Source: Rhodocyclaceae bacterium (GTDB taxonomy: Bacteria; Pseudomonadota; Gammaproteobacteria; Burkholderiales; Rhodocyclaceae). Taken from it: a stretch of 33,884 nucleotides of DNA. The stretch lies in the NCBI GenBank assembly GCA_030682175.1, contig JAUXOM010000056.1, positions 1-33,884 on the forward strand, read 5' to 3'. Numbering within the stretch: the first letter of the stretch is position 1; each line of letters begins with the position of its first letter. Shown one piece after another: positions 21,257 to 31,653 of this stretch. The notes beneath the pieces were generated by a model. It saw only the letters and a program-made list of their open reading frames with translations, was not told the origin of the DNA and made no database searches. Position numbers and translations under genes: made by a program.

Positions 21257-21382
21257 TCAAGCCATACCTTGCGCTAAAGTCTTAGTAGTACCCGTAGAAC
21301 CCGGCCAGTGGCCGATGGCACGTCCCAGTTCATTGAACCACTCGCTGGCGGTATTCTCGACGATGGATTCGTTGAGGCTCAT
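21257..21382 (-). pseudogene. hsdR 5' head fragment 2 (41 codons)
   Basis: ATG at 21380-21382 overlaps the RhuM2 stop as ATGA. The product begins MSLNESIVENTASEWFNELG and continues RAIGHWPG, matching the first 25-28 residues of the full HsdR ([20 protein letters not shown]), then diverges and ends TGA at 21257-21259, two bases before the AlbA_2 gene start. It is intact as a small ORF and may now serve translational coupling; equally it is the scar of an insertion into hsdR. Confidence 0.8.
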
Positions 21383-22443
21383 GGTTTGTCCCCGTTCTCT
21401 GGCAGCTCCTTGATCATCCGGTCAAAGTCCGACTCGAACAGCCGGTCCTGCACGATGCGGTATTTTTCAAACTCGCTCTCGGCGTAAGTTTTTGCCAGTT
21501 CCGCTGTCACTTTCCCAGCATCCTGCAAGACTTCCCGATCCCAGAGCTGAAGGAATCCGCTCAAGCGCTTTTCCCAGTCTTCCATGGTCATCGGGATTTT
21601 TCGCATCGCCTGCATTTCGGCCATGTCGAGATAGGCAGAGACAATGCGCTGCATTTGCCCCAACTCGAACGCCGAGAGGTAGTTCTTGGCGATGGAAACG
21701 TCGTAGCGATGGATTTTTCCCCTGGGTGCATCTTCCCAACTGGTCAGCCCCATGTTTTCTTGTTTGTGGTCGGCGCGAACCACGATCAATTCAGCCGCCG
21801 TTTGGCCGTGCACGGCGTAGTGCATCTTGTTTTGAACCGCTGCAAAGAAGCGCTTCGTTGCCGTTGCGGACGGGTCGTAATCCAGCGCGGTGGCGTAGAT
21901 GTCCGTGACTTTCTGGTAGAACTTGCGCTCGGAGAGCCGGATTTCCCGAATCTTTTCGAGTTGGCGCTCGAAGAACTCATCCGTCAGGTAGCCGCCGTGC
22001 TTGAGACGTTCGGCATCCATGGTCCAGCCCTGGATCGTGTAGTCCTTGACGATCTGGTTGGCCCACTTGCGGAACTGGACGGCGCGCTCGTTCTCGATCT
22101 TGAAGCCAACGGCGATGATCGCTTGCAAGCTGTAGTGCTTCGTCTGGTAGCCCTTGCCATCGGCGGCAGTGGTTAAGTATTGCTTAACCACTGAAGATTC
22201 TTCCAACTCGTTGTCGCTAAAAATGCGCTTCAGGTGCTGGTTGATAGCAGGGACAGAGACATCGTAAAGCGCGGCCATCATCTTCTGCGTTAGCCAGATG
22301 TTTTCATCTTCGTAACGCATTTCGACGCTGGCCTCCGAATTGCCTCCGGCTGCAACAAAGCTAAGGTATTCGGCCGCCGAAGAGCGAACCAGAGAGACCG
22401 TGGTGTTCTTTTTCGCGCGACCGCCGGGAGTGGGTTTGCTCAT
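21379..22443 (-). CDS. RhuM-family protein, paralogue 2
   Basis: 354 residues; ATG 22441-22443 overlaps the stop of paralogue 1 as ATGA. N-terminal DNA-binding-like part (WLTQKMMAALYDVSVPAINQH, residues 50-70), then the RhuM core: HYSLQAIIAVGFKI, QFRKWANQIVKDY, LSERKFYQKVTDIYATALDY, FFAAVQNKMHYAVHGQTAAEL, and YDVSIAKNYLSAFELGQMQR. RhuM is named after a gene of Salmonella pathogenicity island 3; members are frequent next to type I restriction genes and have no proven activity. It differs from paralogue 1 by a 17-residue N-terminal extension. A perfect inverted repeat lies within codons 84-92. Confidence 0.88.
   Translation of the reverse strand: MSKPTPGGRAKKNTTVSLVRSSAAEYLSFVAAGGNSEASVEMRYEDENIWLTQKMMAALYDVSVPAINQHLKRIFSDNELEESSVVKQYLTTAADGKGYQTKHYSLQAIIAVGFKIENERAVQFRKWANQIVKDYTIQGWTMDAERLKHGGYLTDEFFERQLEKIREIRLSERKFYQKVTDIYATALDYDPSATATKRFFAAVQNKMHYAVHGQTAAELIVVRADHKQENMGLTSWEDAPRGKIHRYDVSIAKNYLSAFELGQMQRIVSAYLDMAEMQAMRKIPMTMEDWEKRLSGFLQLWDREVLQDAGKVTAELAKTYAESEFEKYRIVQDRLFESDFDRMIKELPENGDKP
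22167..22193. repeat. Perfect inverted repeat inside RhuM2 coding sequence
   Basis: CAGTGGTTAAG (22167-22177), loop TATTG, CTTAACCACTG (22183-22193). It lies in codons 84-92 (SVVKQYLTT), the position that aligns exactly with the inverted repeat of RhuM1. Confidence 0.9.
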
Positions 22444-23489
22444 GGTTTCGGTGCCTTGGGTTTCTTCGGCTTTGGCAGCTTCTTCAATTCTGATGCAGCC
22501 CGTTCAAAATCCAAATCCACCGCCCGAGGCTGCGAATCCAGAAATACACGGTAGCGTTCGTATTCCAGCTCCGCTTTCATCTTCGCCTGCTCGGCGGAAA
22601 TCTTCCCCGCATGGTCCAGCAGCTCGTGCTCGGAGAGTTTCAGAAACTCATCGAGCTTCGTGATCCAGTCGTGCATCGTCATCACCTTGCGTTGCAGCGC
22701 ACGCAGCTCGGCAAATTCGATGTAGGCGTTCACGATCCGGTTCAGCGTGCCGAGCTCTTCGCCATCGAGATAGTTCTTGGCGATGGACACATCCTCCTTG
22801 CGGATGATGCCGCCGGGCCGCGTCGTCTTCAGCCCCATGAAAGGCTGGCTCGCATCCACCCGCGCGTGGATCACCTCCGCCGCCGTCTGCCCGTGCGCCG
22901 CCCAATGCATCTTGTTCTGCACTGTGGCGAAGAAAAGCTGCGACAACTCCGTGTTCGGCGTGTAGTCCACACTCGTCGCATAAATATCCAGCACCTTCTG
23001 GTAAAAGCGCCGTTCGGACGAGCGGATGTCGCGGATGCGCTCCAGTTGCTCGTCGAAGTAGTCCTTCTGCCCCTTGCCCGGCGGATTCTTCAGCCGTTCG
23101 TCGTCCATGGTAAAACCCTTGAGCAGATACTCGTTCAAGCGCGAGATCGCCCACTGGCGGAACTGCGTGCCGCGATGGCTGCGCACGCGGAAACCCACCG
23201 CGATGATGGCGTCCAGGTTGTAGTGCTCAATCTCCCGCGTCACCTCGCGCTTGCCCTCGATTCGAACTATTCGGAATTTCCGAATAGTTGCCCCCGCTGC
23301 CAGTTCCCTCTCGGCGTAAATGCCTTTCAGATGCTCGTTCACGGTCGGCACAGTGACTTGGAATAGCTCGGAAATGAGCGCTTGCGTCAGCCAGAGAGTC
23401 TCGTTTTCAAACCGGCACTGGATGCGCGTGCGGCCGTCCTCGGTCTGGTAGAGGATGAATTCGGATTGGGGCAAGGCTTCGTCGCTCAT
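22440..23489 (-). CDS. RhuM-family protein, paralogue 1
   Basis: 349 residues; ATG 23487-23489 overlaps the stop of the hsdR head fragment as ATGA. It has the same architecture as paralogue 2: WLTQALISELFQVTVPTVNE (33-52), IEHYNLDAIIAVGFRVRSHR, QFRQWAISRLNEYLLKGF, SSERRFYQKVLDIYATSVDY, FFATVQNKMHWAAHGQTAAE and DVSIAKNYLDGEELGTLNR, ending in a basic Lys/Pro tail. The paralogues are strongly diverged, so they probably entered separately or duplicated long ago. Codons 67-75 overlap a perfect inverted repeat. The function is unknown; a role in defence or in regulating the restriction system is inferred from context. Confidence 0.88.
   Translation of the reverse strand: MSDEALPQSEFILYQTEDGRTRIQCRFENETLWLTQALISELFQVTVPTVNEHLKGIYAERELAAGATIRKFRIVRIEGKREVTREIEHYNLDAIIAVGFRVRSHRGTQFRQWAISRLNEYLLKGFTMDDERLKNPPGKGQKDYFDEQLERIRDIRSSERRFYQKVLDIYATSVDYTPNTELSQLFFATVQNKMHWAAHGQTAAEVIHARVDASQPFMGLKTTRPGGIIRKEDVSIAKNYLDGEELGTLNRIVNAYIEFAELRALQRKVMTMHDWITKLDEFLKLSEHELLDHAGKISAEQAKMKAELEYERYRVFLDSQPRAVDLDFERAASELKKLPKPKKPKAPKP
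23265..23289. repeat. Perfect inverted repeat inside RhuM1 coding sequence
   Basis: AACTATTCGGAA (23265-23276), one central base, TTCCGAATAGTT (23278-23289). It covers codons 67-75 (ATIRKFRIV), exactly 17 residues before the equivalent site of RhuM2, which matches the 17-residue N-terminal difference. Confidence 0.92.
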
Positions 23490-23704
23490 GGCATGGTCGC
23501 CCTAAAACCGTAGGGGCTGCTACTCGAATTTGGGGAGCTCAAACCCAAATTCGGGGAGCTGGGTACCGAAATTCGGGGAGGTAGCCCGAAAACGTTCGCC
23601 GCTGGTTCGCCGGACGCGAAATGCGGCTCGTGCCCGATGGCATAACTCAACACCCCGAACCAGTCGGGGACGGCGTCTTCGACGACAAATTCGTTGAGGC
23701 TCAT
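23486..23704 (-). pseudogene. hsdR 5' head fragment 1 (72 codons)
   Basis: ATG at 23702-23704 overlaps the HamB stop (ATGA), and TGA at 23486-23488 overlaps the RhuM1 start (ATGA). The first 37 residues (MSLNEFVVEDAVPDWFGVLS, then YAIGHEPHFASGEPAAN) match the HsdR N-terminus, including GEPAA. After that the frame turns into Ser/Pro-rich sequence made from three near-repeats (23525-23580). It is a scar of cargo insertion that has stayed open and stop-coupled to its neighbours. Confidence 0.82.
23525..23580. repeat. Inverted repeat and three short tandem units in hsdR head fragment 1
   Basis: CGAATTTGGG (23525-23534), nine-base loop, CCCAAATTCG (23544-23553) is a perfect inverted repeat. The same core recurs as CCGAA-A-TTCGG at 23566-23576. 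Three AATT(T/C)GGGGAG units are spaced 21 and 22 bases apart. They read as the SSPNLGLSSPNSSSSP stretch of the small ORF. Confidence 0.8.
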
Positions 23705-25836
23705 GGCTCCGGTGTCTTGGCAGGTTCAATCCCTTCAAAGAAGTGGCGGGCGATGTATTTCTCAAAGTCCGATAGTGCTGGAAGTTGAAGGACTGCGTCC
23801 TTTCCCACCCTATTTATATTGGCTAAAGCGGCATGAAGGTCTTCATACCTTGCCTCGAAATCGATCAGGCCGGTTCCTTGGATCTTACGGGCGATCATTC
23901 GAGGAAGCCCGTATTCTTCCAATTGATAGACAACCGATGGAAGAAACCCATGGGATAGCTTGCTGACGAAACCACCGACGTCGACGCCAGTCTTCAGAAT
24001 CTCTTTTTGTAGTTCGTTAATGTCATGAACGAGCGATGCCAATCCGAACGTGACATCACGCTCCAGCTTGAAGAACAAGTTCACATCTACGTCTGGAGCA
24101 AGCGCCTGAAGAATCCGTGGCAACTTCCAGTCCCAGTTCCTCGAAAGCACCTGAACAAACTTCACGAACATGTCCCGCTTACGGCTCCAAGTCACATCTT
24201 GGGGAAATGAATGAACAATCTGTGTTTTAAATCCAATCACAAGCCCCAGCAACCTACCCCAGTCTGCTGGGTCCGATGAGTTGAGAAAGTTAAGCCCATT
24301 CCAAGTGGATCGATTTGCATGAAGATGCTCGGCGATCGTCAGTATGAGTTGGGAATCGTTTGATCGAAGCAGACCAGCTCCATCATAGAGCCGGCGGAAC
24401 CCTTCTGCGCCTACCAACTCTGTCATGCGCTCTCGGAATGTGATGATCTGCGCAATCTGGTCTTTCGTTAGGCTTTCCTTGTGCTCGGTCTCGTCAATTC
24501 CGCCGAGCATGGAATCCGGGAATTCAATTTCGAGCTGGGTATCAGTGTCTTCCGGCGGTTTTTCAAGTAAGTAAATCTGTCCGATGAAGTATTTAAACAT
24601 CCGACCGGCCCGACCAATAATGTTCTTGTATGTGAAAGCGTTTAACTTGCTGCGTCCCCGACCACTACCGTTCTTCCAAAGGATCACCACTTCAGCGGAA
24701 GTGTTGACGCCTTCAATGATCGATGACGTGGAAATTATTGTATCCAGCCCTCGCTTGGACTCAAACAGCTTGATCTGTATCTGACTCAGTGAACGGTGAA
24801 TCTGACCGTTGTGAATGCCAACGCCTTGCGTCACCAATTCAGTCAAGCTCCAGTCTGTCCCGTAGGACTCTGACAGCCACTTCGCAAACGCTGTCAGTAG
24901 TGGGCGCTCCAAAACTGCCATATTCTCGGCGAGGAGTTGCCCCACTTTGTCGATCTGGCTATATGACGCCGCGTAAATCAGTGTCTTTGTAGCGTTCGTT
25001 TTCAGCAGATTAACAAGAACCTCACCCTTCTCTTCCTCGTTCTTGATTCGCTTGTAGAGTTCGTGCTGTTTAAGGAAGACCGTGTTGAAATCGAGCTTGT
25101 CCACAAACTCCATGCCCCTCGTAAACACGTTCTCGCCGAGGCTTCGAATATTAGGTGCCAGAAAGTAGCGTTGTTTTGAAATCTTGCTGAGCTTCAAAAT
25201 CGCCTTCAGCAACGACGGGCATCTGTCCTGGTCAAAGTCTGAACTCGCTTTGTAGAACTCGTCCACGACCAGAAGATCAATGGAAGAAAGGATTTCTGCG
25301 TATCCAGCGGCACGCTCTTGCGGAAAGACAAATAGGTTCCTCTCACCCAGAGTGGCATCCGTGGTGGTGATGATTTTGTATTCCGCCCCAAATTTTCGGT
25401 AGATGCGTCTTCTAACCTCATCCATCAGCGCAATCGTCGGCACGATGATCATCACGTTTGCTGGCTGCGCAATTGCGATGAATGCGTCAATCACGAATGT
25501 CTTCCCAAAACTGGTTGGAGCACTGACCGCCAGGCTTTCGCCAGCGAGCAGCTTTTTCAACACAGCGGACTGCTCGCGGTGAAGAGTTTTATCTTCCGCA
25601 TCTCCCGAGTCGACCTTGAAAGCCTCAAAGACAAATCTCTCAGACCAATCCGCCGATTCGATTTCCATATACGGATACAGACCAGTCGCCCGTATGAAGT
25701 GGTTTACGCACCGCGAATACGGAAGAGCATTCCGCTTGTGATGATCGAGAATATTTATCAGACGCTCTCTTGCCTTGACCTCTTTGCCTGCCACAAGGAG
25801 ATCATTGATTACCGAGCATTCAGCAAAAACGTCCAT
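23701..25836 (-). CDS. hamB: Hachiman helicase HamB
   Basis: 711 residues. SF2 helicase: Walker A APTSFGKT (near 104-112), motif II VVDEFYK (near 191), motif Ia region IIVPTIALMDE, C lobe with STSSIIEGVNTSAE and NIIGRAGRMFKYFIGQIYLL (motifs V-VI). It starts two bases after the HamA stop. DUF1837 protein plus a helicase of this type is the Hachiman anti-phage system: HamB senses aberrant DNA ends or structures and holds the HamA nuclease inactive until triggered. The codon use is markedly more AT-rich than hsdM/hsdR, which supports separate acquisition. Its stop overlaps the next ORF as ATGA. Confidence 0.88.
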   Translation of the reverse strand: MDVFAECSVINDLLVAGKEVKARERLINILDHHKRNALPYSRCVNHFIRATGLYPYMEIESADWSERFVFEAFKVDSGDAEDKTLHREQSAVLKKLLAGESLAVSAPTSFGKTFVIDAFIAIAQPANVMIIVPTIALMDEVRRRIYRKFGAEYKIITTTDATLGERNLFVFPQERAAGYAEILSSIDLLVVDEFYKASSDFDQDRCPSLLKAILKLSKISKQRYFLAPNIRSLGENVFTRGMEFVDKLDFNTVFLKQHELYKRIKNEEEKGEVLVNLLKTNATKTLIYAASYSQIDKVGQLLAENMAVLERPLLTAFAKWLSESYGTDWSLTELVTQGVGIHNGQIHRSLSQIQIKLFESKRGLDTIISTSSIIEGVNTSAEVVILWKNGSGRGRSKLNAFTYKNIIGRAGRMFKYFIGQIYLLEKPPEDTDTQLEIEFPDSMLGGIDETEHKESLTKDQIAQIITFRERMTELVGAEGFRRLYDGAGLLRSNDSQLILTIAEHLHANRSTWNGLNFLNSSDPADWGRLLGLVIGFKTQIVHSFPQDVTWSRKRDMFVKFVQVLSRNWDWKLPRILQALAPDVDVNLFFKLERDVTFGLASLVHDINELQKEILKTGVDVGGFVSKLSHGFLPSVVYQLEEYGLPRMIARKIQGTGLIDFEARYEDLHAALANINRVGKDAVLQLPALSDFEKYIARHFFEGIEPAKTPEP

Positions 25837-25838
25837 AG

Positions 25839-26777
25839 TTATTGGTTCTTGAAATGCTCAACATTGCTAAGGAATCTATCGACGATCTTCTTTTTCTCAG
25901 GGACCGGAAAGAGAATCAGATGAAAAGTAATTTCTTCATAGAGGAACACTTTTGCTTTTAGCTCTTCGACCTGTTTCTTGAAATAGCTTTGTGCCCGCCC
26001 TTTGTGGTACGCAATAACATCATTTTTGTAAGCTGTGGTCAGCCGTGTGCATGCCTTTGTAATTGCACACTCATGAAGCATTAGAATCGGAACATGAAGC
26101 CGCGATTTCAGATCATCGATTGAAGCACCTGATTGAAGGCAGGATTTAATTGAAGACCTGAGGGTCGCATCACCAATCAGATAATCGAGATCGTTGATGT
26201 TCGTCACGATGCTGTTCTCCTTCTCCAGCTTGTCGCTTTGGAGTGCATTACCAACTGACTCGACAATGGAAGCGAGGCGGGCGTTCTTGATGTCGTTGTA
26301 AAACTTTGCTTCGCCTATCCAGATCGAGAAGTCATTCCCATCGACGACGATGTGAACGCTATCAGCGCCCTTCGCGTTATCTTGGTTGTTCTGTTTGTAG
26401 AATATCTTCGGTACCACCGGCAATGCCCTGTAGTGGTGCTTCATAATTCCATAAAGAACGATCTCAGCCAGTTCGCTGCCCTTCCCAATGTCATCGTCTG
26501 AATCGGTCAATCGCAGTTTCTTCGCGGCTTCGGCAAGCAACGATAAACTTTGGTTTGCGAGTGCGTTCCGTTCAGCGCTCGATAGAGCAGTATCGACGAT
26601 ATTGTCCCAAATGAATTTCTGAAAGCGAGAGAAACGCCAGTGCCCGTCCGCGAAATCATTGATGGCACTGACAACATGCTTATTGGTGTCAGGATCAATG
26701 CCCGAGTCAGTATTGAACGAGGAAAACTCATCATCAAAGATCACCTCAAACATAAGTGATGGAGCTGAAAGTGCCAT
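25839..26777 (-). CDS. hamA: Hachiman nuclease HamA (DUF1837)
   Basis: 312 residues; ATG two bases after the hsdS stop. PD-(D/E)xK-type residues are visible: Glu in GSELAEIVLYGI (near 102), Asp in GADSVHIV (near 137) and the core ExK in WIGEAKFY (near 153-155). The DUF1837 signature region FKxxG..LAE...HHY is present. HamA degrades DNA without sequence preference once freed by HamB, leading to abortive infection. It is AT-richer than the restriction genes, like hamB. It lies between hsdS and the hsdR head fragment, so the Hachiman pair sits inside the restriction operon. Confidence 0.88.
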   Translation of the reverse strand: MALSAPSLMFEVIFDDEFSSFNTDSGIDPDTNKHVVSAINDFADGHWRFSRFQKFIWDNIVDTALSSAERNALANQSLSLLAEAAKKLRLTDSDDDIGKGSELAEIVLYGIMKHHYRALPVVPKIFYKQNNQDNAKGADSVHIVVDGNDFSIWIGEAKFYNDIKNARLASIVESVGNALQSDKLEKENSIVTNINDLDYLIGDATLRSSIKSCLQSGASIDDLKSRLHVPILMLHECAITKACTRLTTAYKNDVIAYHKGRAQSYFKKQVEELKAKVFLYEEITFHLILFPVPEKKKIVDRFLSNVEHFKNQ

Positions 26778-26779
26778 GT

Positions 26780-28117
26780 TTAGAGGAGGTGTGCCAAAGA
26801 TTGAATGGCCGGCGCCGTGAGTTCCCCACTCAGCAGCTTCGGCAGCAGTGTGTCGCGTAGGGTGGCGAGGGTGCGGGATTGTTCGAGAGCGATGGTGCCG
26901 CGTTCATCCCATGTGCCTACAAGTTCAGCGAACCGCGACTGAAGTTCGGCGGGTGGGACAATTAAAGGCAGGGCTCCAAGTATCGAAGTGTTCAAATTCG
27001 GCATCGTCGCGCCCACTGCATGACGAACGATCCAGGATCGTGATTCCGATGTACCGAGGTAGGCTGCACCGAAGTGCGGGTTCAAGCCGCGTGGGCCGAA
27101 GCGCACCCGCAAGCATCCTGTTCCGCAGAGCCAGCCCTTCTCCGCATGGCGAATCAGCGAGCGGCGTTCGACATCACCGCGCCGGCTGTAAACAACATCG
27201 CCTGTCTGCACTCGATACACACTCAACCGTGCGGCGTCTTGCTCGCGGATACGAGCGATTGAGCTTGGGTCGATGCGGTTGTCGCGAAGATCGCTGGGCA
27301 TGATGGAAGGAATGCCCTCACTCACGTAGTCCGACGCGTGTAGCTGTGTGCCGAAAGGACCGGTCTGGATATTGCCTCCCCCTTTGTCACAGGCTTCACC
27401 AAGTGTCGTAAGTATCCATCCATGCGGGATATGCCCAACCTCTGAGTCGTGGAAGGTGGCAGGAAAGAGCGCGGCAGTGGCCGCATCGAGTCCGCCAGGT
27501 TCCCGCCCATCGAGTTTGGCGCGGACGGGGTCGAAATCGACGAACCAGCTCTGGAACAGCGCCCGCGCCATCGCCTCCAGCGTCGCGTTCATCCGCCAGT
27601 TCAACTCGATCTTGTCGTCCAGCGCCCCAAGCACCGCCGCGATGGCTTTTTGCTCGGCGAGGGGTGGGAGACGAAGTGGGAACTTCGGGAATTCTATTAG
27701 TGCGAGTCTCTCAACCGTACTCCCGTGAATCGTTCGCTCCCGGATGACATCTTGGAACTCCGGCCCGAGGTAGTAATAGAGCAGAAAGCGGCCGTCGGTC
27801 TTGTTTGGGTCTGGGCGCATAAGTGCCATTCGGCGACCGAGGCAGCACCGCAAGCCTTCAGGGATGATCGCTGCTTCACCCAATTTCGTCTCGTAAGAAA
27901 AGACAACGTCACCCGCTCGGGGCGTAACTCGACGCGTCCATTTCGCGAAGTCCTCTTCCGAAAGATGCTCGCTCCCTGCAAGGTCGATTCGGCCTTTGTT
28001 GAGACTTGTAATTCCAAGGAATATTGGCCCGACCGTGGTCTTCGTGGGCGTGGCGTGCGGTCCGTCAAAGACCTGACAGATATCCGCGACAGTTGTTTCT
28101 CGCAGCCTACCCGCCAT
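26780..28117 (-). CDS. hsdS: Type I restriction-modification specificity subunit
   Basis: 445 residues with two target-recognition domains (about 5-150 and 225-375), each followed by a conserved helical spacer. The central spacer reads PPLAEQKAIAAVLGALDDKI ... FQSWFVDFDPVRAK; the distal one ends TLATLRDTLLPKLLSGEL. The two domains set the two halves of a bipartite DNA site; the site itself cannot be predicted here. ATG 28115-28117 lies within the preceding small gene, with an 11-base overlap. Its first bases are also the end of the 26-bp duplicated hsdM tail, so the original arrangement was probably hsdM directly overlapping hsdS. Confidence 0.93.
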   Translation of the reverse strand: MAGRLRETTVADICQVFDGPHATPTKTTVGPIFLGITSLNKGRIDLAGSEHLSEEDFAKWTRRVTPRAGDVVFSYETKLGEAAIIPEGLRCCLGRRMALMRPDPNKTDGRFLLYYYLGPEFQDVIRERTIHGSTVERLALIEFPKFPLRLPPLAEQKAIAAVLGALDDKIELNWRMNATLEAMARALFQSWFVDFDPVRAKLDGREPGGLDAATAALFPATFHDSEVGHIPHGWILTTLGEACDKGGGNIQTGPFGTQLHASDYVSEGIPSIMPSDLRDNRIDPSSIARIREQDAARLSVYRVQTGDVVYSRRGDVERRSLIRHAEKGWLCGTGCLRVRFGPRGLNPHFGAAYLGTSESRSWIVRHAVGATMPNLNTSILGALPLIVPPAELQSRFAELVGTWDERGTIALEQSRTLATLRDTLLPKLLSGELTAPAIQSLAHLL

Positions 28118-28544
28118 AACCCAGCCCCTTCAGGTTTGCTGCACGAGCTACTAACGGCGGCCCACCCGCAAAAGTCGGCGCTGGCAAGACGGCGGCTGCG
28201 TCCTCATACCATTCCCTGTAGAAATGGACGTACTGAGCGGTGGCGGCCGGATCGATGCCGTAGTAGTAGCGGCAGAGGGATTTGAAAAGCAGCAGCCCCT
28301 GCGGGTGTCCGGCACAGGTGAACAGGTGGTCCAGCGTGTGCTCAATCTCATGGACATCCTGGGAACCGCTTTGGATGATGCTCTGCACGATTGGCGTGTA
28401 GGCAAGAGCCATTTGCCGTTGCAGGTCATTCAGCGAGACCACCAGCGCCTTGATTGCGTTCAAGGGTGCGTCAACCGCAGTGGGTTGAGTGGCGTGTTTG
28501 CGTCGGTTGGTCGTGCGGTGTTTGGCAGTTGTTTCACTCGTCAT
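28107..28544 (-). CDS. Small accessory protein of the hsd operon, hypothetical
   Basis: 145 residues from ATG 28542-28544, overlapping the DUF1016 gene by 11 bases. Basic, disordered N-terminus (TTAKHRTTNRRKHATQ), helical middle (DVHEIEHTLDHLFTCAGHPQ) and the segment CRYYYGIDPAATAQYVHFYR, a pattern I recall from small proteins in other type I operons; no biochemical role known. The C-terminal 30 residues are patched together: copy 4 of the dispersed word gives VLPAPTFAG, then ANLKGLGY, which is the end of HsdM. The stop therefore comes from the duplicated hsdM tail. Confidence 0.75.
   Translation of the reverse strand: MTSETTAKHRTTNRRKHATQPTAVDAPLNAIKALVVSLNDLQRQMALAYTPIVQSIIQSGSQDVHEIEHTLDHLFTCAGHPQGLLLFKSLCRYYYGIDPAATAQYVHFYREWYEDAAAVLPAPTFAGGPPLVARAANLKGLGYGG
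28115..28140. repeat. 26-bp direct repeat, copy at the small gene/hsdS junction
   Basis: Identical over 26 bases to 29656-29681. It begins CATAACCCAGCCCCTTCAGG on plus and encodes ANLKGLGY on minus. The copies flank the DUF1016 gene and the small accessory gene (about 1.54 kb). Confidence 0.92.
28171..28191 (+). repeat. Dispersed 21-bp word, copy 4
   Basis: Plus strand AAAGTCGGCGCTGGCAAGAC plus G, antisense to the small accessory gene, which reads it as VLPAPTFA. Confidence 0.75.
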
Positions 28545-29658
28545 GACCGATTTCCTTTTCAAGCTGTTTCAGGAAATTTTCCATGGCGGCTTTGTCCGGC
28601 ATTTCCACGGCGTAGTTGGAGACGAAGAGGCTATTGGGCATGTCTCCGAGGGCGAATTCGACGAGGGCCTGGTTTTTGCGGGTACAAAGCAGAATGCCGA
28701 CAGGGGGCTGGTCGCCAGCGGTCATTTCATGCTTTTTGTAATAAGCGACGTATGTATTGAGCTGGCCGAGATTTTCGTGGGAGAAGGCTTGGGTTTTCAG
28801 TTCGACGAGGATGTGGCACTTGAGGATGCGGTGGTAAAAGACGAGGTCCACGAAGAAATACTCACCGCCGATGAGTATCCGTTTCTGGCGCGCTTCGAAG
28901 CAGAAACCGTGGCCCATTTCGAGAAGAAACTCCTGCAGGCGTTCGAGCAGGGCATCTTCCAGATCGGATTCGCCCATGGTGTCCTGCGAGCGGAGACCGA
29001 GGAACTCGAAGATGTAGGGATCGCGGATGATCTGGGCGGGCTGGAGCGTTTCCGCTTTGGCATGCGCTGTGGCGGAGAGCTTGGTTTTGTTCTTCGAGAG
29101 GCCGCTGCGCTCGTAGTAGAGGCTGGCGATCTGGCGCTTGAGTTCGCGCACCGACCAGTTGCCGCGCAGGGCTTCGGCTTCGTAGAAGCGGCGCTGGAGG
29201 GGGGCTTCGAGTTCCACCAGTTGTTCGAAATGGCTATAGGAAAGACGGTTGATCAGCTTTTCCCCGTCCAGTGCCGGGGCATCCGGGAATTGTGCGGACA
29301 GTGTCCGCACTTTTTCTTCCAGCAGAAAGGGAGGTACGACTTGGGCAGATAGTGCGGACGCCGCCCGCACTATCTGGGGATAGGTGCGATAAAAGGCCAG
29401 GTAGCCATAAAGCTGGCGGCGGCCGGTATTGCTGACGGACTGATCGCGCAGTGCTCTGGATAACTCGGTAAGCAGTTTGTCGCCATAGCTGGCGCGGTCC
29501 GCGCCTTGCAACTCGAATTCGGCGATGTAGTAGCCGATGAACCAGTTGCGCAGCGTCAGGCTGAGATTAACGGCCTTGCTGGCTTGCTCCGCCAAGGCGG
29601 AATGCGTCCGCTCAATGGCAGCGACCAGACTGTCGAAATTCAGCGCTTCAGAGGTCAT
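28534..29658 (-). CDS. DUF1016 / YhcG-type PD-(D/E)xK nuclease-like protein
   Basis: 374 residues; ATG 29656-29658, overlapping hsdM by 11 bases. The N-terminal helical DUF1016 domain (about 10-95) contains [28 protein letters not shown] and [15 protein letters not shown]. The variable middle (95-125) carries two inverted repeats at DNA level. A conserved block [12 protein letters not shown]...[20 protein letters not shown] follows. The C-terminal nuclease fold has the active-site residues in FFVDLVFYH and HILVELK (D...ExK) and [10 protein letters not shown]. Members are common within type I restriction operons and phage-related loci; YhcG has been suggested to act on DNA junctions, but the function here is unproven. 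Confidence 0.88.
29292..29310. repeat. Perfect inverted repeat in DUF1016 gene (codons 117-122)
   Basis: GTGCGGACA, one central base, TGTCCGCAC. It overlaps codons reading VRTLSA and shares GTGCGGAC with the neighbouring inverted repeat. Confidence 0.9.
29346..29376. repeat. Perfect inverted repeat in DUF1016 gene (codons 95-105)
   Basis: CAGATAGTGCGG, seven-base loop, CCGCACTATCTG. Codons read [11 protein letters not shown]; the peptide LSAQ recurs after both inverted repeats. Confidence 0.92.
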
Positions 29659-31258
29659 AACCCAGCCCCTTCAGGTTTGCTTTGATTGCCTCCTCCAGCT
29701 TCGCCGATTCCTCAAACTGGGCGTGCAATTCGGCGACGAGGCGCGGCATCTTTTCCTCGAAGGGCTCGCCATCGTCTTCGATTTCTTCGGCACCGACGTA
29801 GCGGCCGGGGGTGAGGACGTGGCCGTGGGCGGCGATTTCGGCAGTGGTGGCGGATTTGCAGAAGCCGGCGAGGTCGGCATAAAAGGCTGGATTCCGGCTT
29901 TCGCCGGAATGACGAATCGGGGAATCTCCGCGCCAGGCGTGGTAGGTGGTGGTGATCTTTTGCAGGTCGGCGTCGGTCAGTTCGCGGTGGACGCGGTCGA
30001 TGAGGGTGCCGAGTTTGCGGGCGTCGATGAAGAGGGTTTGTTGGCGGCGGTCGCGGAAGCCGCGTTTGGCATCGGCCTTCTTGTTCTTCGCAATGAACCA
30101 GAGGCAGACGGGAATCTGCGTGCTGTAGAAGAGCTGGCCGGGCAACGCCACCATGCAGTCCACCAGATCGGCCTCGATCAGGGCGCGGCGGATCTCGCCT
30201 TCGCCGGACTGGTTGGAGGACATGCTGCCGTTGGCCAGGACAAAACCGGCGCAGCCGGCCGGGGCGAGGTGGTGGATGAAGTGCTGCACCCAGGCGAAGT
30301 TGGCGTTGCCCTTGGGCGGGACGCCGAACTGCCAGCGCACGTCGTCGTCGCGGCGGTGCCAGTCGGAATCGTTGAAGGGCGGGTTGGCGAGGACGTAGTC
30401 GGCGCGCAGGTCGGGATGCAGGTCGCGGCGGAAGGTGTCGGCGTGCTCGGCGCCGAAATCGGCCTCGATGCCGCGCAGGGCGAGGTTCATCACGGCAAGG
30501 CGGCGCGTGGTGGCGTTGCTCTCCTGGCCGTAGATGCTGATATCGCCGAGCTTGCCGCCGTGCGATTCGACGAACTTTTCCGACTGCACGAACATGCCGC
30601 CAGAGCCGCAGCAGGGGTCGTAGATGCGGCCCTTGTAGGGGCCGAGCATCTCGACCAAGCAGCGCACGACGCAGGACGGCGTGTAGAACTGGCCGCCGTT
30701 CTTGCCCTCGGCGCTGGCGAAGCGGGTGAGGAAATACTCATAGACGCGGCCGAGCAGATCAACCGAGCGGTGGGTCTTTTCTCCTTCGCTGGCGGCGGTG
30801 AGGGTGATGGTGGCGATGAGGTCGATGAGTTCACCGAGGCGCTGCTTGTCGAGACCGGGGCGGGCGTAGTCCTTGGGCAGCACGCCTTTGAGGCGCGGGT
30901 TGTCGCGCTCGATGGCGACCATGGCGTCGTCCACGATCTTGCCGATGCCGGGCTGCTTGGCCGCTGCCTGAAGGTGCGACCAGCGCGCGTCGGCGGGCAC
31001 CCAGAAGACGTTCTCGGCCTTGTATTCGTCGGGGTCTTCGGGGTTGGCGCCGGCGTAATCCCCCTGGCCCGCAAGGAGCTTGGCGCGGTGTTCCTCGAAG
31101 GTGTCGGAGATATATTTGAGGAAGATGAGGCCGAGGACGACATGCTTGTATTCCGCCGCGTCCATGTTGTTACGCAGCTTGTCGGCGGTAAGCCAGAGCT
31201 TGGCTTCGAAGCCGAGATTGGCGGAGGAGTCGCTCTTCTTCGTTGGCGTTTTCGCCAT
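29648..31258 (-). CDS. hsdM: Type I DNA methyltransferase, M subunit
   Basis: 536 residues; ATG 31256-31258 with AAAAGG upstream. HsdM_N helical domain (about 15-150), then the N6-adenine methylase core with the SAM motif [11 protein letters not shown] (near 214-224) and catalytic NPPF in [12 protein letters not shown] (near 291). It makes N6-methyladenine and with HsdS protects host DNA. It is the first gene of the operon. Near residue 450 a REP-like palindrome is translated in frame as [12 protein letters not shown], between HAWRG and [11 protein letters not shown], which are normally a few residues apart. The reading frame is kept, so the enzyme is probably active. The end [10 protein letters not shown] is duplicated 1.5 kb downstream. 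Confidence 0.95.
29656..29681. repeat. 26-bp direct repeat, copy at the hsdM end
   Basis: Partner of 28115-28140. It is the genuine 3' coding end of hsdM. Confidence 0.92.
29887..29916. repeat. REP-like palindrome inserted in hsdM
   Basis: ATTCCGGC (29891-29898), loop TTTC, GCCGGAAT (29903-29910), with flanks CTGG and GACG. This is the widespread element translated as [10 protein letters not shown] related copy lies in the intergenic region at 31497-31522. Confidence 0.88.
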
Positions 31259-31653
31259 CAGATTGCCTTTTGCCTGGTGAGGGTGTTCATGGGCGCGCTA
31301 AATGCAATGTCGGCAGCATTTTAGCGGACTTGCGTGACCTTCGTTGTCCGCTTCGCGCCAGAAATCGCGACGTAGGCTTTCGAATTGAGCTCACATCGTC
31401 GGGCCGAATGGCCGAACTATTGAGCGAAATCCGGCTGAACCGAAGGTCTTCTTCGATATTTGGGCATTAGGGAAATGCTGATCGAGTCCGGATTCGCCAT
31501 TCCGGCACAAGCCGGAATCCAGGAAAATCAACAAGCGGGACACCGGCTTGCGCCGGTGTGACGGACTTGATCAGTGCTGCCCGGGAATATTGTTTTGCCG
31601 GGCAGGCCGCAGCCAGGTTGGCGGCGCGTGGAGCGGCGGCATGAATAAACCGA
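31259..31653. repeat. Intergenic region with a tandem pair of REP-like palindromes
   Basis: 395 bases between rtcB and hsdM with no supported gene. ATTCCGGC-ACAA-GCCGGAAT at 31499-31518 and ACACCGGC-TTGC-GCCGGTGT at 31540-31559 form two hairpins 21 bases apart. A third weaker stem CTGCCCGG/CCGGGCAG lies at 31577-31605. The hsdM promoter should be in 31259-31400; a TAAAAT -10-like box near 31318 has no clear -35. Confidence 0.75.

Follow-up and report, generated by a model that had tools for sequence, protein, structure and literature searches.

Inverted repeats inside RhuM, DUF1016 and Bro-N genes as putative operators of the proteins that they encode

The 33,884-nt stretch at positions 1 to 33,884 of contig JAUXOM010000056.1 of a Rhodocyclaceae bacterium (assembly GCA_030682175.1), called the window here, carries on its minus strand a type I restriction-modification (RM) locus, as judged from its open reading frames (ORFs) and Pfam matches (Table 1). 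Two RhuM paralogues, RhuM1 and RhuM2, and a DUF1016/YhcG gene belong to this locus, and inverted repeats (dyads) lie within the coding sequence of each. We propose that every gene of this kind very probably carries, within its coding sequence, a putative operator of its own encoded protein. The two RhuM proteins matched PF13310 at 343 and 375 bits (curated cut-off 33.7), which places both in the family, while the DUF1016 protein matched PF17761 at 91 bits and PF06250 at 183 bits (cut-offs 32.8 and 32.5) and thus has both domains. The hsdR head fragment was named from its translation.

Table 1. Genes, predicted recognition helices and dyads of the window
Feature	Position	Strand	Basis
hsdM	31258-29648	-	Pfam/ORF list
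DUF1016/YhcG gene (PF17761 + PF06250 PDDEXK nuclease domain)	28534..29658	-	Pfam
DUF1016 codons aligned to the family GFSxxNLxxM helix	29392..29424	-	position counted from translation
DUF1016 dyad 1, centre 29361, 15+1+15, 93% complementary, half-site GTGCGG(G)C	29346..29376	-	
DUF1016 dyad 2, centre 29301, 9+1+9, perfect, half-site GTGCGG(A)C	29292..29310	-	
Small gene, no Pfam match	28562-28107	-	
hsdS, HamA, helicase, hsdR head fragment (in this order after the small gene, then RhuM1)		-	
RhuM1 gene (PF13310)	22440..23489	-	Pfam
RhuM1 codons 47-53 (VPTVNEH), start of predicted recognition helix	23331..23351	-	
RhuM1 dyad, 12+1+12, perfect, codons 67-75, half-site CCGAAT	23265..23289	-	
RhuM2 gene (PF13310)	21379..22443	-	Pfam
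RhuM2 codons 64-70 (VPAINQH), aligned recognition helix	22234..22254	-	alignment; position counted from translation
RhuM2 dyad, 11+5+11, perfect, half-site CTTAAC	22167..22193	-	
AlbA-domain gene	between RhuM2 and hsdR	-	
hsdR	19753-16586	-	

A sequence-only reading of the window had reported perfect repeats at aligned codons of the two RhuM genes, offset by 17 residues, and this was borne out: the dyad centres are the third base of codon 71 in RhuM1 and of codon 88 in RhuM2, and in both proteins the Pfam RhuM match starts at the inverted repeat. The arms had been called unrelated, which holds for the inner bases, while the outer CAACT/CAGTT-like part recurs in most of the listed members. Two perfect repeats had also been assigned to the DUF1016 gene; both exist, but only that at 29292-29310 is perfect. 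Their centres, 60 bp apart, fall at first codon positions (codons 100 and 120), and one half-site, GTGCGG(A/G)C, is common to both.

RhuM genes came from three sources: a phylum sample with a match in 94 of 398 genomes, GTDB contigs covering many phyla, where 80 of 586 were retained, and viral contigs, where 80 of 268 were retained. In the phylum sample the best-scoring places were taken, which leaves it short of fragments and weak matches. After dropping identical proteins and those with unknown residues, 230 of 245 remained, and 226 of these align at the site (71, 83 and 72 from the phylum sample, GTDB and viral contigs, respectively). A perfect repeat with arms of at least 10 lay within 15 nt of the fixed place in 146 of the 226 genes, compared with 58 of 4520 shuffles of synonymous codons; outside this place such arms occurred in 2 of 226 genes and in 49 of 4520 shuffles. 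The centre was identical in 144 of the 151 genes having arms of at least 9, and when mismatches were allowed, at least 9 of 13 symmetric pairs were present in 216 of 226 genes. The RhuM site is an odd-centred dyad of 25-27 bp with a centre of 1-7 nt that is often unpaired. Code analysis was restricted to 212 genes, 4 of the 216 being left out for want of a complete aligned helix-turn-helix (HTH), and these 212 contain 147 different 25-mers and 39 different inner 6-mers. The feature is far more general than could be seen from the window.

Outside the site itself, the inner site bases were best predicted by the alignment columns with which the second HTH helix begins. Site positions 3-5 follow residue 52, positions 5 and 6 follow residue 48, and positions 7 and 8 follow residues 47 and 51. 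Mutual information reached 1.02 of 1.12 bits for position 3 with residue 52, 0.71 of 1.03 for position 6 with residue 48 and 0.99 of 1.18 for position 7 with residue 47, with a mean over columns of 0.08-0.15 bits. Examples of paired helices and 6-mers are VRTINE with CCGGAT (11/11), KSTISR with TGCAAC (11/11), KQNISL with CTTGAC (8/8), VPAINQ with CTTAAC (3/3, including RhuM2) and VPTVNE with CCGAAT (3/3, including RhuM1). In partial Mantel tests, the correlation of half-site with helix given the C-terminus was 0.642 (reached in 0 of 500 permutations; permutation maximum 0.044), and that of half-site with C-terminus given the helix was 0.031. The four-residue helix key differed in 34/34 close disjoint pairs of genes whose sites differ (C-terminal identity of 80% or more), and among distant disjoint pairs (<50%) with the same key the 6-mer was the same in 25/33, compared with 339/9325 of all distant pairs.

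The dependence extends to a synonymous base. The CGN arginine codon of the right arm was CGG in 40/40 genes with R or K at residue 48 and CGA in 57/59 others (Fisher 1e-25), so the choice tracks residue 48 in 97 of 99 genes. This bears on the alternative that the wing strand coevolves with the recognition helix at the protein level and leaves the palindrome as a by-product, which draws on the position of the site in the codons of the strand adjoining the helix. Against it, the symmetry extends to wobble bases, the palindrome is lost in synonymous shuffles, and the CGA/CGG choice changes with the amino acid unchanged; the synonymous result contradicts coevolution of the protein alone, and we regard this alternative as extremely improbable. 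In the sequences compared, the RhuM inner 6-mer covaries with the N-terminal HTH recognition helix of the encoded protein, also at a synonymous base.

The helix-site relation was then used for prediction in 20 ORFs having only a short RhuM match, for which Pfam gave RhuM in 20/20 and Fic in 18/20. Each prediction was taken from the most similar helix in the set of 212 RhuM genes, and the site centre was picked among three neighbouring codons by symmetry, without use of the prediction. Many of the test helices are also present in the training set, as the test requires. In these mostly RhuM-Fic genes, 116/120 half-site bases and 17/20 whole 6-mers were correct, and always choosing the commonest base gave 49/120. 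The suggestion of the first reading that the repeat is a site read by the encoded protein is thus strongly supported at the sequence level by a half-site that covaries with the helix, synonymous base included, and that can be predicted in another architecture.

Helix and site also appear to change jointly. Different sites were present in 108 RhuM pairs whose C-termini share 80% identity or more; these pairs overlap and are not independent. Their identity was 0.64-0.79 in windows starting at residues 8-32, 0.47-0.58 for starts at 38-80 and 0.88-0.91 for starts at 92 or later; 77 pairs with the same site kept 0.73-0.95 throughout. The alignment pattern is that of residues ~38-85 being exchanged, cassette-like, together with the site against a conserved C-terminus.

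The arrangement recurs in two further families, judging from their alignments, with a weaker code in DUF1016/YhcG and with few genes in Bro-N. For DUF1016, 130 unique ORFs were obtained and 124 align; arms of at least 9 in the homologous region were found in 74 of these 124 genes, compared with 0.2% of 1240 shuffles, and the dyad centre was on the first codon base in 85/86. At 1.05 of 1.60 bits (z 6), the clearest dependence on the helix linked site position 7 to the fourth residue after the G of GFS, and the partial Mantel correlation with the helix given the C-terminus was 0.285 (0/500 permutations). DUF1016 genes vary in length and dyad number. In several, the window gene among them, a single half-site is repeated in at least two dyads; E. 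coli K-12 yhcG has three dyads, 39 bp apart, at gene offsets 315, 354 and 393. A single-protein DUF1016 scan of viral contigs gave no relative. The Bro-N set, obtained with one query (PF02498), is small, and 24 of its 25 ORFs align; arms of at least 9 were present in 11 and arms of at least 7 in 19 of the 24, compared with 0.6% and 5.1% of 960 shuffles. The helix-site pairs were YWRKLK with GTGAC, YWKVLK and YWRVLK with GTTAC, YLKK with GGGAC, and YIK/YVK with GGTAC. Loci L133 and L407 showed no convincing Bro-N dyad in register, and a separate single-protein Bro-N scan found one relative. Site bases hence follow recognition-helix residues in RhuM, partly in DUF1016 and, by the table of pairs, in Bro-N. 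Homologues in all three families do contain the repeat, and synonymous shuffles do not give it equally often, the two points on which the first reading had staked its claim; a chance origin of the dyads was rejected by the shuffles in each family. Other ORFs of the fetched loci had arms of at least 11 in 21/2104 cases, and of 18 distinct ones 5 were RhuM or DUF1016 pieces and 1 was Bro-N. At locus L339, a DUF1016 frame (ORF from ~base 1294) is preceded in frame by a RhuM-site piece (ITVKEYLTV, dyad AACTGTCAAGGAATACTTGACAGTT), apparently a RhuM remnant beside DUF1016.

A yhcG match was found in 4417 of 5426 E. coli genomes, and eight alleles, two of them annotated as broken, were compared. Two types among them differ at ~40% of bases in 280-430 and at ~4-5% elsewhere, with both helix and dyads changed; the third dyad is absent from the second type (two alleles). 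Breaks in yhcG at base 385 or 406, inside the third dyad, occur in several E. coli genomes, and in E. coli BL21 (L417) a transposase gene follows the broken yhcG; insertion elements may favour the palindrome.

A number of observations weigh against the proposal or narrow it. The genes share kinship, so independence is overstated in the shuffle comparisons. Among the 10 RhuM genes outside the 216, 7 have a shifted dyad and 3 look decayed, by eye. RhuM site positions 10-13 track local codons, not the helix. A few helices, e.g. VRTISE, occur with two or three close 6-mer variants, and 8/33 distant pairs with the same four-residue key carry different 6-mers, so the key is incomplete. For DUF1016, the partial Mantel correlation with the C-terminus given the helix (0.454) exceeds that with the helix, and the code is therefore not cleanly separated from descent. 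In four K-12-type yhcG alleles, changes numbered 1-2 of 48 positions in the arms and 22-37 of 1080 elsewhere, which gives the arms no clear excess of conservation, and three of the four break a pair of dyad 2; strong within-species constraint on the yhcG dyads is consequently not supported.

An mRNA hairpin had been suggested as well. Selection on it would serve the control of translation or the stability of the message, and the protein might bind it. Such repeats would fold, and their centres are often unpaired. G-U pairs, which an mRNA hairpin would tolerate better than A-C, were no commoner among the mismatches: 21 G-U and 24 A-C at positions 3-12 of 216 RhuM sites, and 9 and 23 in 107 DUF1016 sites. 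As G-U is not favoured, the constraint looks like one on DNA; the site moreover depends on HTH helix residues, and we consider the hairpin very unlikely. A cruciform, also suggested earlier, would not depend on helix residues, whereas the half-site does.

The AlphaFold2 model of RhuM1 (pLDDT 81, pTM 0.51) has helices at 36-43 and 47-59 and strands at 69-78 and 81-91, a predicted winged-HTH fold with a helix at the code residues, for which the Foldseek matches are weak. In this model the recognition helix would start at residue 47, and the dyad covers codons for the last part of a short helix and for the strand 69-78. The best PDB fold match of RhuM was DdrC (Foldseek prob 0.94, E 0.018), and a PDB sequence search with RhuM found no relative at E 1. 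In the DUF1016 model, helix 47-59 is predicted to start near the GFS motif; Noc was matched with prob 0.99 and E 0.15, the aligned region not being reported. DdrC of Deinococcus and Noc are thus likenesses of fold only, in weak matches to DNA-binding proteins. The top DUF1016 fold matches were nucleases such as NucS (E 5e-6), which probably concern its other domain. Half-sites lie about one helical turn apart, a spacing that would suit a dimer.

A second RhuM site was searched for in the flanks (~0 to ~1.5 kb). In 215 of 216 loci the best match scored 11-16 of 20, like the control, and both scores of 16 come from a single locus with two RhuM genes; the exception, L101, carries 275 bp upstream of the site a second RhuM dyad that agrees with it at 19 of 20 positions. 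A second operator near the RhuM gene was rejected on these scores; as to an operator in front of the gene, as in an RM controller, the fetched flanks held a further copy of the site beyond the control in L101 only. At up to 3 mismatches the genome contained one match per window RhuM dyad, in a search confined to these two dyads, looser sites falling outside it. Given a single genomic match for each and no second flank site beyond the control, no target other than the intragenic dyad is evident, and roadblock autorepression is proposed for that reason.

These counts also concern the idea that the palindromes arose by in-frame insertion of mobile elements comparable to repetitive extragenic palindromic (REP) sequences or Rickettsia palindromic elements. 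The latter are protein-coding palindromes (PMC4316617) and dispersed mobile repeats of ~100-150 nt, so mobile palindromes that encode protein exist; like the dyads, they lie within open frames. DUF1016 genes do vary in length and dyad number, and a REP-like repeat does occur in hsdM of this genome. Unlike the Rickettsia elements, the dyads are ~25 nt long, have one place per RhuM gene and follow the host protein's helix. The many genomic copies expected of a dispersed palindrome were not seen for the two RhuM dyads, and RhuM sites substitute for aligned codons without adding any. Single copy number and helix covariation contradict mobility for RhuM, and we give this idea almost no credence. 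The REP-like repeat itself, ATTCCGGCNNNNGCCGGAATGAC, lies in frame in hsdM at 29891-29913 and again downstream at 31496-31518; at up to 2 mismatches the genome has 42 forward and 40 reverse matches, a few of them counted on both strands.

Neighbours of RhuM were listed in the GTDB loci as 81 upstream and 81 downstream ORFs, of which 57 and 60 on the same strand were scanned (the rest were opposite, short or duplicate). Upstream were N6_Mtase (9), N6_N4_Mtase (7) and Eco57I (6), and downstream ResIII (13), Methylase_S (9), SWI2_SNF2 (6) and HSDR_N (2); the counts are per family and not per locus, families overlap, and many neighbours are unrelated. Often, though not always, RhuM has a modification gene before it and a specificity or restriction gene after it, as in the window. 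E. coli K-12 yhcG, an ordinary chromosomal gene adjoining nanQ, is not tied to RM. RhuM was earlier proposed as a toxin domain from its neighbourhoods, with fusions to Doc noted, in PMC3710099; both would fit an autorepressed effector.

Two further observations concern the locus itself. The end of the hsdR head fragment (23519-23600) consists of three head-to-tail ~21-nt units (CTCCCCGAATTT-like), which produce an imperfect inverted repeat (23519-23559, 16-nt arms, 88%). The first reading had counted this repeat with the others; it was rejected as the same kind of dyad, being imperfect and lying in a gene remnant made, by eye, of CTCCCCGAATTT-like or CTCCCCAAATT-like head-to-tail units. Within the row of RM genes, a HamA-domain gene and a DEAD-helicase gene (23701-26777, Pfam) form a pair that resembles the Hachiman defence system.

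Sequence statistics show that the dyad exists at a fixed place, that it is diverse and covaries with the helix, and that helix and site are exchanged jointly; the following mechanism is built on them. An N-terminal HTH-like domain would read the half-sites of an odd-centred dyad through its recognition helix, the dyad lying just downstream of the recognition-helix codons in a codon register fixed per family. The protein would bind its own dyad as a homodimer and block RNA polymerase within its own gene. This would give negative feedback that moves with the gene and does not depend on the promoter in front of it. In loci arranged like the window, with RhuM flanked by modification and restriction genes, such a block might hold down the downstream restriction gene as well. 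The likely working is that of an ordinary repressor. The dyad, bound by its protein, might instead be an address label, by which a resident protein shuts off incoming elements of the same cassette (immunity groups) or directs its effector to genes of its own type, with escape driving diversification. The 39 half-sites in 212 genes, the cassette-like exchange of residues ~38-85 with the site, the different effector domains (nuclease, Fic, RhuM) and the occurrence of the genes in viral contigs and mobile settings would suit a label; autorepression is simpler, and K-12 yhcG, with its neighbour nanQ, is an ordinary chromosomal gene, so we think a label rather unlikely. We see about an even chance that the RhuM HTH, DUF1016_N and Bro-N make up a class of self-addressed genes that co-encode operators beside the helix, whose helix and site move as a cassette between nuclease, Fic and RhuM effectors, whose specificity diversifies like immunity groups, and through which genomes hold a large helix-to-DNA table.

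Autoregulated dimeric HTH repressors with operators are known from toxin-antitoxin systems and phages, and autorepression and single intragenic operators are likewise familiar. The present genes resemble such repressors in having an HTH-like domain, a dyad site, helix residues that set the half-site and probable negative feedback. They differ in that the site is intragenic, in a fixed codon register beside the helix codons and in three domain families, and in that 215/216 loci have no second site in the fetched flanks. Controller (C) proteins of RM systems are small DNA-binding proteins encoded beside modification and restriction genes; RhuM is like them in often following a methylase gene and preceding a specificity or restriction gene, and unlike them in belonging to a different protein family, in showing, in the fetched flanks, no operator in front of the gene and, for K-12 yhcG, in not being tied to RM. 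The literature searched, mostly without subscription papers, contained no description of such intragenic sites, and to our knowledge an own operator in fixed codon register that changes with the recognition helix, in three domain families, has not been described before.

RhuM and DUF1016 recur in defence islands with an unsettled role and gain here a concrete candidate activity, the binding of a named DNA site. Protein and putative DNA site are adjacent in one gene and change together across phyla. Because each such gene supplies a helix-site pair, sequence databases would hold a large natural HTH recognition-code table, which would help to predict DNA specificity. Should the site block transcription, the gene would carry its own feedback element, portable and not reliant on the host promoter.

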